From Phycisphaerales bacterium (GTDB taxonomy: Bacteria; Planctomycetota; Phycisphaerae; Phycisphaerales; UBA1924): a DNA stretch of 64,000 bases. Every line of letters begins with the position of its first letter. The stretch's first letter is position 1. The notes under the pieces were generated by a model. The model had not been told where the DNA came from. It did no database searches and saw nothing but the letters and a program-made list of their open reading frames with translations. This document shows, one piece after another, positions 13,711 through 62,484 of this stretch. The DNA is taken from assembly GCA_035627955.1 (NCBI GenBank), contig DASPKU010000012.1:246414-310413 (forward strand). Direction: 5' to 3'. A program made the position numbers and the translations under genes.

Positions 13711-13743
13711 GCCCGCTCACTTCGTTCGGGGCTCGTTTCGAAC
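13711..13743 (+). repeat. GCCCGCTCAC repeat, solo copy
   Basis: GCCCGCTCACTTCGTTCGGG followed by GCTCGTTTCGAAC, directly after the GCS2-like stop and before the Fur-family gene. A facing pair of the same sequence is at 62317-62342 (minus) and 62384-62410 (plus). Confidence 0.65.
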
Positions 13744-28438: not shown

Positions 28439-28445
28439 GGGGAAT

Positions 28446-28522
28446 GTCGGATGTCGGAAGTCGGAAGTCGGAAGTCGGAAGTCGGAAGTCGGAAGTCGGA
28501 AGTCGGAAGTCGGAAGTCGGAA
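28446..28522. repeat. 7-bp tandem array in the purT/groES-like divergent region
   Basis: Ten exact copies of GTCGGAA (28453-28522) preceded by one variant unit (GTCGGAT). The array starts 8 bp before the purT start codon and ends 73 bp before the GroES-like start, so it occupies the 5' leader or promoter of purT. Confidence 0.95.
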
Positions 28523-28547
28523 GCGGGGATGGTAACGAAAGGGGGCA

Positions 28548-40402: not shown

Positions 40403-40861
40403 ATGGGGCACACGTTCTCCTCATTGCTCTCGCACCTCGTCTTTTCGACGAAGAACCGCGATCCATGGATCCAACCCGAAATGGAGCAGCGCCTGTTCTC
40501 CTACTGCGCAACAGTGGCGCAGTCAGAAGGCGGGCGGATCCTCTGCATGAACGGCATGCCCGATCACGTGCACCTGCTGCTATCCCTCAAACCGACGGTG
40601 GCGCCATCGAACTCCGTGCGGGCCATCAAGGCGAACTCGTCGAGGTTCATTCACGAGACGTTCGCGGATCACCGGCGGTTCGCGTGGCAGGGTGGTTACG
40701 CGATCTTCTCCGTGAGCGAATCCGTCTCGCCAAAGGTGCGGGGGTACATCGATGACCAGAAATCGCGCCACGGGGCGATGCGCTTCGAGGACGAGTACGT
40801 ACAGCTGTTGGACCTGCACAACCTGCCGTATGAGACGCAATACCTGTTCGATGATGAATGA
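40403..40861 (+). CDS. REP-associated tyrosine transposase (RAYT, IS200/IS605-like)
   Basis: 152 residues from ATG 40403. The Y1 HUH nuclease fold is shown by the metal-binding His pair in NGMPDHVHLLL near residue 55 and the catalytic Tyr in VRGYIDDQK near 115. RAYTs are domesticated, single-copy relatives of IS200/IS605 TnpA that recognise REP hairpins. Here the gene lies between inverted copies B and C of a three-hairpin repeat, with the stop codon immediately followed by copy C. Intact and probably functional. Confidence 0.93.
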   Translation: MGHTFSSLLSHLVFSTKNRDPWIQPEMEQRLFSYCATVAQSEGGRILCMNGMPDHVHLLLSLKPTVAPSNSVRAIKANSSRFIHETFADHRRFAWQGGYAIFSVSESVSPKVRGYIDDQKSRHGAMRFEDEYVQLLDLHNLPYETQYLFDDE

Positions 40862-60728: not shown

Positions 60729-61898
60729 TCACGCCAGCCACCGCGCCGAGTGCACGCCCCCACCCCCACCGCCGCCACTCTCACTTCCGCCCGTACCCCC
60801 GCGCAGACGCCGCGGGTCGTTGCCCGTAACCCTCCGCCCGACCGACGCTTGCGCCGCGTCCATCAGCTTCTGCAGCAGCTCGTCGCTCACGCGGTCCGCG
60901 GCCACGATGACCGCGTCCTCCCACGTCACCTCTTCCTCCGGGGCGTCGTTGGGGGTGGTCGGGGTCTCGGGGGCCTTGGTGGTCCCGGCCGCCTCCGCAA
61001 TAGGAGCGATAGGACTCATAGGACTCACAGGACCTTTGGCGTCCGGCGGGTCCAGGCTCACCAGTTCGTCCACGGCGTCGAAGGCGACCTCCTCGGCCTC
61101 GCGCAGGTTCGGCGCATCGACTAAGACCTCGGCGTACCGCGCCGGCTTGTGCTCGTACTCGCACCGCACGATCACCCGCCACGGCGTCACGCCCAGGTCC
61201 CGCCCCTCGTCGTCGATGTTCGTGTCCGGATCAACATTGAGCAGCAGCGACCACTCGTCCTTGAGCCGCTCCACGATCTCCTCCTGGCTCAGCAGGTCGG
61301 GCTTGTCGCTGGGCACCATCAGCACCCCGCGGTGCTCGTGGGCCGCGGCGTCGGCGCCGGCGGGCTCCTCCACCTGCTCGAGGTCGAAGGCCGCGAGGAT
61401 CTTCTCCACCTTCTCCTTGATCCCCGGCTCACACCGCAGCGTGATGATCTTGTGCTCGTCGATGAAGATGTAGAAGAACGGCTCCTCGCTCATCGCCCCG
61501 AAGCCGCACATCCCGTCCTCGAAGAGGAAGTCCCTGAACCGCCGCACCGCGTCCGTAAACCGGTCCAGCCCCACCAGGTCGTACGAGATGTAAGGATCAA
61601 TCTCGCGGTACGCGTCGTGCCCCAGCACATCCAGGATCGGGTACACCCGCCCCGGGAAGAGGCTGAACAGCATGCGGCACAAGGGCTCCACCCGCTCGGC
61701 GCTGATCACCGCGTCGTACACGTAGCGGTCGGGCCACTCCTCCCACTCGCCCGACTCGTCGTCCCCGTCCGCAGGCTCAAAGTGCACGCTGTACCCCTGC
61801 CGCGGCGTCAGCGGCTCCACCGGGTACGCCCCCAGCGGGAACTGGAAGTTCCCCGATGTGATCCGCTGGATGCTGGGGTCGGCCTTGCAGGTGATCAT
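60729..61898 (-). CDS. Protein of unknown function with Gly-rich tail
   Basis: 389 residues from ATG 61898; a longer in-frame start falls in a dispersed hairpin and is rejected. No signal peptide or membrane segment. Body: FQFPLGAYPVEPLTPRQGYS, YVYDAVISAERVEPLCRMLF, EEPFFYIFIDEHKIITLRCE and WRVIVRCEYEHKPARYAEVL. A Pro/Ser/Ala linker with SPMSPIAPI repeats and a Gly-rich C-terminus follow. I do not recognise a family. The 21-bp CACGTG array lies about 215 bp upstream of its start, which makes it the candidate gene for any regulatory effect of that array. Confidence 0.55.
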   Translation of the reverse strand: MITCKADPSIQRITSGNFQFPLGAYPVEPLTPRQGYSVHFEPADGDDESGEWEEWPDRYVYDAVISAERVEPLCRMLFSLFPGRVYPILDVLGHDAYREIDPYISYDLVGLDRFTDAVRRFRDFLFEDGMCGFGAMSEEPFFYIFIDEHKIITLRCEPGIKEKVEKILAAFDLEQVEEPAGADAAAHEHRGVLMVPSDKPDLLSQEEIVERLKDEWSLLLNVDPDTNIDDEGRDLGVTPWRVIVRCEYEHKPARYAEVLVDAPNLREAEEVAFDAVDELVSLDPPDAKGPVSPMSPIAPIAEAAGTTKAPETPTTPNDAPEEEVTWEDAVIVAADRVSDELLQKLMDAAQASVGRRVTGNDPRRLRGGTGGSESGGGGGGGVHSARWLA

Positions 61899-61927
61899 GC
61901 GAGGGGGGAGTGTAAGTCGCGTGAAGG

Positions 61928-61977
61928 TGCCACGACCGTGCCCCCCGTGCCACGACCGTGCTCTGACGGTCGTGGCC
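61928..61977 (+). repeat. CACGACCGT-type dispersed hairpin, copy 2
   Basis: Perfect 11-bp stem GCCACGACCGT (61949-61959) / ACGGTCGTGGC (61966-61976) with GCTCTG loop; the left arm is also present as an extra partial copy at 61929-61939. Matches the copy at 9509-9545. Confidence 0.68.
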
Positions 61978-62113
61978 TTCAAAGCCGGTCATCGGGAGTT
62001 CCCGGACCCTGCCCGCGCCCCCCCTCCCCAACGTGATGGTGCCAAGAACCGCGTTCACAGAGCCGCAGCGGGGCTGATTCGGGGGGCGTTGTGGTCTGAA
62101 GGTGCTCCATTCA

Positions 62114-62287
62114 CACGTGCGAATGGAGCTCACGCACGTGCCGATGCTCCTCAGCCACGTGCGTTTGCTCCTCAATCACGTGCGAATGCTCCTGAGTCAC
62201 GTGCGTTTGCTCCTCCGTCACGTGCAAACGCCCCTGGAGCACGTGCGTGAGCTCCGCCCTCACGTGCGAGCGCCGCCCCATCACGTG
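62114..62287. repeat. Nine CACGTG palindromes at exact 21-bp period
   Basis: CACGTG occurs at 62114, 62135, 62156, 62177, 62198, 62219, 62240, 62261 and 62282, every one 21 bp from the last and each followed by C. The 15 bp between them are diverged (for example CGTTTGCTCCTCAAT and CGTGAGCTCCGCCCT), so the hexamer is preserved while spacers drift. Reading frames are open on both strands across the array, with His-Val repeated every seven codons. It lies in a 586-bp region between two minus-strand genes. Confidence 0.97.
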
Positions 62288-62316
62288 CGAGGCCCGACCC
62301 CGCGGTTGCGTGTGTA

Positions 62317-62410
62317 ACGAGCCCCGAACGCAGTGAGCGGGCCCTTTGTGCCGCCCTGCGTACAGGGTTCCACCCAGCACCTGTCACTGCGTTCCGGGCT
62401 CGTTGCGAAC
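62317..62410. repeat. GCCCGCTCAC repeats, facing pair
   Basis: Minus copy at 62317-62342 (complement GCCCGCTCACTGCGTTCGGG onward) and plus copy at 62384-62410 (CACTGCGTTCCGGGCTCGTT onward) enclose about 40 bp. The same unit stands alone at 13711-13743. Confidence 0.65.
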
Positions 62411-62484
62411 GTCCCCCGCGCGCCCGCACAAAATCGGCCGACCCGCTGGTGTCGGTCAAGCGGTCCAAGCCACACGGCGACGCC

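Follow-up and report, generated by a model that had tools for sequence, protein, structure and literature searches.

A nine-unit CACGTG array at 21-bp pitch in a Phycisphaerales genome, tentatively read as an intergenic quasi-palindromic minisatellite

The 64,000-nucleotide stretch of a Phycisphaerales bacterium analysed here (the window) contains, in an intergenic gap, nine CACGTG palindromes at a pitch of exactly 21 bp. Judging from the arrangement of its units, we tentatively read this array as a quasi-palindromic minisatellite that may have been made, and may be kept in register, by template-switch copying at hairpins, with CACGTG as the hinge; we place this reading somewhat short of probable.

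The hexamers start at 62114, 62135, 62156, 62177, 62198, 62219, 62240, 62261 and 62282, and all eight steps between them measure 21 bp, as the first-pass annotation of this DNA had stated. Its description of the units was also borne out: columns 1–7 of the unit (CACGTGC) are invariant in 9/9 units, the other 14 columns all vary, and the mean pairwise identity of the nine spacers is 0.515 (~51%). For seven invariant columns placed at random, the probability that six would be contiguous is 0.0025. Across the window CACGTG occurs 37 times, compared with 29.2 expected from shuffles, and 28 occurrences remain once the nine of the array are subtracted. Self-identity of the array is slightly greater at a lag of 42 bp (0.74) than at a lag of 21 bp (0.70), indicating that a 42-bp higher-order repeat is also present; Tandem Repeats Finder reports it at 62135–62269. 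The array consists of constant-length tandem units outside genes, as is expected of an intergenic minisatellite. It does not resemble a CRISPR, in which near-identical repeats of 20–40 bp alternate with unrelated spacers, because only 7 bp are invariant and the spacers are interrelated.

The gap that holds the array spans 586 bp (61899–62484, assuming that the left gene starts at ATG 61898) between two minus-strand genes, for which a Pfam search returned zero matches. Rfam yielded no family at the gathering score; an Rfam identity was rejected, the single sub-threshold match, to sraL (19.2 bits compared with 39; 61831–61979), lying outside the array. Directly upstream of the flanking gene is an inverted repeat, CACGACCGTGCTCTGACGGTCGTG (61946–61974), with a 93% identical copy at L137:6802–6830, which is possibly another dispersed hairpin or terminator. 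Elsewhere in the window (28441–28523) the heptamer GGAAGTC is repeated 11.7 times with 96% matches.

Table 1. Positions of the array, its parts and its neighbours in the window.
Feature	Position	Strand	Remarks
Flanking gene, 389 aa assuming a start at ATG 61898	60729..61898	-	No Pfam match; array upstream
Two-copy segment: left part, array and REPIN-like hairpin	62044..62411	.	~370 bp; 77% identical to C13:276960-277320
Left part of the segment	62044..62113	.	Two copies found only (32/32 candidates scored, query from 62080; 40/98 in a second search)
Near-perfect palindrome of 26 bp, GCTCCATTCACACGTGCGAATGGAGC	62104..62129	.	Hinge is the first CACGTG; u0 spacer resembles inverted u1 spacer (10/15)
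Nine 21-bp units, CACGTGC plus 14 variable bases	62114..62302	.
CACGTG hexamers, first to last of nine	62114..62287	.
Unit 1 with bounding hexamers	62114..62141	+	Inverted match to 62239-62266 (score 18; P=0.10 when the hexamers are kept fixed)
Unit 7 with bounding hexamers	62239..62266	-	Matches unit 1 in inverse orientation
REPIN-like long hairpin, two inverted REP arms AACGAGCCCCGAACGMAGTGAGCGGGC	62316..62412	.	One of at least ~48 in the genome
Flanking gene, ~230 aa	62485..63180	-	No Pfam match; array downstream

The left part and the array together occur twice in the genome (4.26 Mb, 23 contigs), the second occurrence being on contig C13. No third copy of the segment was present in the genome among the 32 candidates, all of which were scored with a query from 62080. 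Searches with the whole segment gave any match in 5 of 121 genomes of relatives and in 3 of 163 genomes of the family, the genome itself included in both counts, and outside it the matches were short only. No second member of the genus was among the genomes listed by these searches or by the family count of CACGTG. The neighbourhood of the C13 copy differs from that in the window: the copy sits 3′ of a glucose/sorbosone dehydrogenase-type gene, and the order along the flanking frames is opposite, running gene, hairpin, array, gene on the minus strand in the window and gene, array, hairpin, ORF on the plus strand on C13. The C13 array likewise has nine units, but one of them measures 22 bp, so that the invariant spacing first described holds for the window array and not for its copy. 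Its cores are CACATG, CACGCG, four times CACGTG, CACCTG, CAGGTC and CACCTG; the hexamer is thus intact in 4/9 units and lost in 5/9. When the copies were aligned unit by unit, with the inserted base of the 22-bp unit excluded, differences fell on 6 of the 54 positions in hexamers and on 46 of the 135 in spacers (Fisher p=0.001). As judged from this pair of sequences, the hexamer changes more slowly than the spacers yet can be lost.

Some units of the window array stand inverted, in register. The spacer of u1 matches the inverse of u0 at 10 of 15 positions and the inverse of u7 at 11 of 15, better than its best direct match, which reaches 9 of 15; tested against a column-permuted null, the best inverse pair has P=0.0075. 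The inverted stretch, 62114–62141 with 62239–62266, is bounded by CACGTG. Direct duplication, by which a minisatellite would grow, does not account for the pairs u0/u1 and u1/u7; the inverted-repeat score of the window array with its hexamers held fixed, taken alone, gave P=0.10. Units u2–u5 are directly related, u3 and u5 being alike at 13 of 15 positions. The inverted-repeat test was applied to eight of ten arrays, the window's included, and in 7/7 of the others the score exceeded the column-permuted null (P 0.00–0.03). Reverse-complement symmetry exceeded the same null (P<0.05) in 7/10 arrays and failed in L137, L441 and L447:19167. Among periodic segments of the genome, symmetry was found in 6/10 at 21 or 42 bp compared with 1/20 at other periods; the corresponding figures are 13/23 and 1/4 in G522, an Odoribacteraceae bacterium MAG, and 3/4 and 3/7 in Amycolatopsis (G511). 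Loci chosen by pattern gave 64/114 compared with 6/39, and viral loci chosen by pattern 12/27 compared with 6/21, counts that are biased by the palindromic search pattern. In the window array, conservation centres on the dyad axis, at 0.94 within 3.5 columns of it compared with a mean of 0.76 (P=0.004), which is partly given because the invariant hexamer is itself a palindrome; such centring reached P<0.05 in 5/20 array stretches, the window among them. The array folds better as DNA than dinucleotide shuffles do (62090–62310, z −3.58), and in 5/10 arrays the folding of the plus strand reaches the 5% level of the column-permuted null. Folding of the C13 array does not exceed that of its null (z −0.4).

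Copying that changes strands at palindromes would produce units of either orientation, all in register, and would keep the core. In quasipalindrome-associated template-switch mutation, strand switches at imperfect palindromes produce inverted copies and make the arms match perfectly. In the array, a quasi-palindrome would allow the nascent strand to fold back or to jump to the opposite strand. Copying would then restart at a matching core, so that a spacer would be rewritten, direct or inverted, by one 21-bp unit each time. The cores would stay alike as the obligatory places of strand matching, and the spacers would shuffle, invert and drift. The array resembles the mutational process in its inverted copies and differs from it in its many phased units; to our knowledge, each described case involves one event at an individual palindrome, and none is a phased array of many units. 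From this anatomy we infer the copying mechanism and also that the array probably has no sequence-specific reader. Several observations count against strand switching. It would leave the common 21-bp pitch without explanation, and its mechanism is read from anatomy. The inverted-repeat score of the window array stands at P=0.10, and the direct relation of u2–u5 is what plain tandem duplication gives. Axis-centred conservation appears in only 5/20 stretches, symmetry fails in 3/10 arrays and plus-strand folding is distinctive in 5/10. Finally, nine intact hexamers at 51% spacer identity could reflect selection of binding sites.

The pitch extends beyond this one array. A lag scan (8–45 bp) of 882 kb of the 4.26-Mb genome, partly chosen around hairpin copies, detected 57 periodic segments, of which 11 have a period of 21 bp and six of 42 bp, making 21/42 bp the commonest tandem period in the scanned DNA (17/57). 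Gene context was taken from reading of the ORFs, since an automatic label of 'ORF ≥150 codons' is too loose in GC-rich DNA. Seven weak segments among these 17 (identity 0.60–0.62) lie in likely genes. The other ten have an identity of at least 0.63: L203 and L473 are in likely genes, L450:12729 overlaps a possible gene start, and seven are intergenic (the window, L137, L441, L443, two in L447, and L486). The intergenic arrays occupy tandem, convergent and perhaps divergent gaps, a mixture that no single promoter or terminator role fits.

Most of the other intergenic arrays have cores of their own. The core of the window and C13 arrays is CACGTGC; the unit of L486, CTTCCACAACCGTTGTGGAAG, is a palindrome except for its centre base; the core of L443, CCAAGSCTTGAAC, is related to GGCCTTGAAC of L441; and that of L447 is TTYGTGGTCRAA. 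At L447:6642–6872 (contig C6, ~106.6–106.9 kb) GTGGTC and its complement GACCAC (or CACCAC) share one register, and these 231 bases fold far better than their column-permuted null (z −7.7). In other genomes the cores include CCGCGCYGCGG in G082 and ATCTCGCGCGA, ATCACTGTAGTGAT and AGCACGCGCTTTT in G522. At loci found by pattern, Tandem Repeats Finder gave 64 rows at 21 bp, five at 20 bp and two at 22 bp off the pattern, some of them adjoining the arrays found, and most of the off-pattern 21-bp rows are without CACGTG. The pitch, and not the hexamer, is thus the general feature. Differing cores mean that no single sequence-specific protein could read all the arrays.

The distribution of 21-bp arrays between genomes is patchy. 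Five other family members, sampled over 308 kb, yielded five periodic segments, none with a 21/42-bp period. A further member of the family, G082, has two 21-bp arrays in 100 kb, one being the known CACGTG array for which one of the five stretches was picked, and G120, of the same order, has one in 60 kb. The load in G522 (L416–L435) is extreme: in 184 kb, 21/42-bp arrays account for 23 of the 30 periodic segments.

Among the papers that searches of an open PMC library listed, we recognised none describing 21-bp quasi-palindromic intergenic arrays, the patchy class in which the window array is best placed. Bacterial intergenic minisatellites and VNTRs, in the part of their description consulted (Subirana and Messeguer 2019, PMC6749651), resemble the arrays in being short intergenic tandem units of locus-specific sequence and patchy occurrence; that part describes neither a 21-bp palindromic class nor units of both orientations in register.

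Plasmid iteron and centromere arrays also have a pitch of ~20–22 bp that sets their cores on one helix face; they repeat a single fixed core in direct orientation next to a Rep or Par gene. The window array shares the pitch, but its flanking genes are without Pfam match and cores vary between arrays.

A pattern search of public genomes located CACGTG triples at 21 bp in at least 118 stretches, including some from Amycolatopsis, Bacteroidota and planctomycete MAGs. In 25 genomes hand-picked from these stretches, and thus biased in their counts, there were 1–30 triples per genome, compared with none of a reversed control in 23 genomes and one and four in the other two. Spacers of separate arrays within one genome can differ considerably. 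When genomes of the phylum were drawn irrespective of the pattern, CACGTG was found in 5/392 and the reversed control in 4/392; in the family, both were found in 3/100 (the genome itself counted among the CACGTG matches). The search of relatives suggested by the first-pass annotation hence gave no support for a phylum-wide element. In viral contigs, triples at 21 bp numbered 21 stretches for CACGTG, 40 for GTGCAC and at least 120 for CAGCTG, revealing no bias towards CACGTG. Within the genome, the core triple of the window array recurs only in the C13 copy.

Taken alone, the window array has its main rival reading in an in-phase operator, in which a dimeric protein binds CACGTG(C) cooperatively on one helix face and selection keeps the hexamers and the pitch. 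An exact two-turn pitch, a palindromic invariant core, and hexamers intact in 9/9 units whose spacers are 51% alike are all as such an operator would have them, as is a divergence between the copies that is one third as fast in hexamers as in spacers; the C13 array could be a decayed copy. The loss of five of nine hexamers there speaks against it, as do the unrelated cores at the same pitch in the same genome, which would be unreadable for a single sequence-specific protein: other 21-bp arrays of the genome do not carry the core that a single regulator would need. Beyond the genome, the test of hexamer conservation is mixed. In 684 units of 122 CACGTG arrays elsewhere that had not been used for finding them, hexamer identity was 0.695 and spacer identity 0.697, and conservation of the hexamer above the spacers in CACGTG arrays at large was accordingly rejected. 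Where spacer identity fell below 0.65, 40 of 263 hexamers were perfect compared with ~5 expected, in favour of an operator; where units were least diverged, the count was 113 of 276 compared with ~161 expected. The pattern is also unenriched in the phylum. The expectation that the hexamer drifts less than the spacers is thus upheld between the window and C13 and not, overall, in the arrays elsewhere, and CACGTG as a functional word in itself finds no support. Binding of the hexamer is possible but demoted, and we consider an operator conceivable though rather unlikely.

Alternatively, slippage could have produced 21- and 42-bp duplications in an ordinary neutral minisatellite, the hexamer surviving through recent turnover of units and chance. 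The 42-bp higher-order repeat with its closely similar u3 and u5, the near-identical units of many arrays elsewhere, and family and phylum frequencies equal to those of the control would all be expected of neutral duplication. Seven contiguous invariant columns and inverse-related units in register would not, nor would palindromy that is commoner at 21/42 bp than at other periods, albeit in a small sample. We regard this explanation as unlikely.

The hairpin beside the array is of a known kind. It has two inverted REP arms around a variable middle, is dispersed through the genome, and has copies to which a RAYT (Y1) gene is linked; together with the Y1_Tnp genes it looks like a REPIN/RAYT system. 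Of 54 BLAST rows, four are second halves and two are single arms, leaving ~48 hairpins with the window's included, a lower bound because 40 of 98 first-look candidates were scored. They lie on contigs C1, C2, C3, C6, C7, C10, C11, C13, C19 and C21 and form clusters on C2, some head-to-tail 118–143 bp apart, with Y1 (RAYT) genes near some. The genome has nine Y1_Tnp matches, one of which (C2:108718–108939) lies between hairpin copies. A RAYT-type Y1_Tnp transposase is encoded in the window at 40418–40759 (E=2e-28; C12:286831–287172), and a solitary REP arm without evident partner is at 13711–13737. Two further genera of the family (G007 and G076, G550) have single REP arms. In the part of the REP/BIME/REPIN literature consulted (PMC3733652), intergenic palindromes and RAYT (Y1) genes are the likeness to this locus. 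The 21-bp arrays are unlike these elements in having no common sequence and in being present in genomes without a Y1_Tnp match (G082, G522 and G511), and CACGTGC lies outside the REP arm. A RAYT as maker of the arrays was rejected on the evidence of those three genomes and of four others (G014, G011, G048 and G075) that have 2–4 Y1_Tnp matches and no 21-bp arrays in the DNA sampled from them. In G120 a single match accompanies a single array; G055 lacks both.

Array and hairpin might instead be transcribed together, as an RNA element whose long hairpin protects or terminates an mRNA. This would suit the plus-strand folding of 5/10 arrays, the advantage of the window array over shuffles as DNA, and the REPIN hairpin, which is very stable (RNA fold of 62310–62415, −61.1 kcal/mol, z −6.1). 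Relative to the neighbouring frames, however, array and hairpin come in opposite order in the two copies, the C13 array folds like its null, and no Rfam family reaches the gathering score; an RNA role is improbable.

The first-pass annotation had weighed a small repetitive His-Val heptad peptide against an element acting as DNA. It had correctly reported such frames open on both strands of the window array; we locate them at 62102–62317 (+) and 62111–62380 (−). In favour of a peptide, 21 bp corresponds to seven codons, and the differences between the copies lean to third codon positions (14, 15, 23). The heptad frame is nevertheless not preserved. On C13 the plus frame is open throughout but out of His-Val phase from the 22-bp unit onwards, and the minus strand has stops in 3/3 frames. 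The hexamer is thus not untouchable, and the DNA does not look gene-like. Inverted units, moreover, are ones that a heptad peptide would not survive. With its frame broken in the second copy, the peptide was rejected as very improbable, and the preference for a DNA-level array stands.

A ParB/parS-type partition array, also proposed at first, is scarcely credible and was rejected: CACGTG is the centre of parS and is central in two of the genome's three parS-like sites, but the array units mismatch the parS-like site TGTTCCACGTGGAACA at 7–9 of 10 flanking positions, within the range of 4–10 for all 37 CACGTG of the window, and the parS-like sites lie elsewhere. Those sites, TGTTCCACGTGGAACA and two variants within 1 kb (C2:92100–93073), form a candidate partition cluster; since a reversed control matches four sites genome-wide at the same three-mismatch limit, their clustering and not their matching speaks for them.

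Strand switching at a CACGTG hinge would explain the units of the window array, and the step of 21 bp would need a cause of its own. Our suspicion is that two helical turns lie behind the pitch shared by unrelated arrays and genomes, which suggests that the step is set, per two turns, by a protein or by the geometry of supercoiled DNA. It is possible, though doubtful, that two-turn palindrome arrays form a cross-phylum intergenic class, with the arrays of the window, G082, Amycolatopsis and G522 as members, in which pitch and dyad symmetry are maintained and sequence is free; the cell would then measure two turns through an undescribed structure-reading protein or a machine that copies hairpins or cruciforms. 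Conservation of a hexamer within a single array does not by itself identify a binding site. If unrelated sequences in unrelated bacteria have palindromic cores at a common two-turn pitch, the object of selection or manufacture would be the pitch and the symmetry and not the sequence. Such arrays would then provide a way to test how phased hairpin DNA is made or tolerated in bacteria, and which protein or repair pathway gauges 21 bp.
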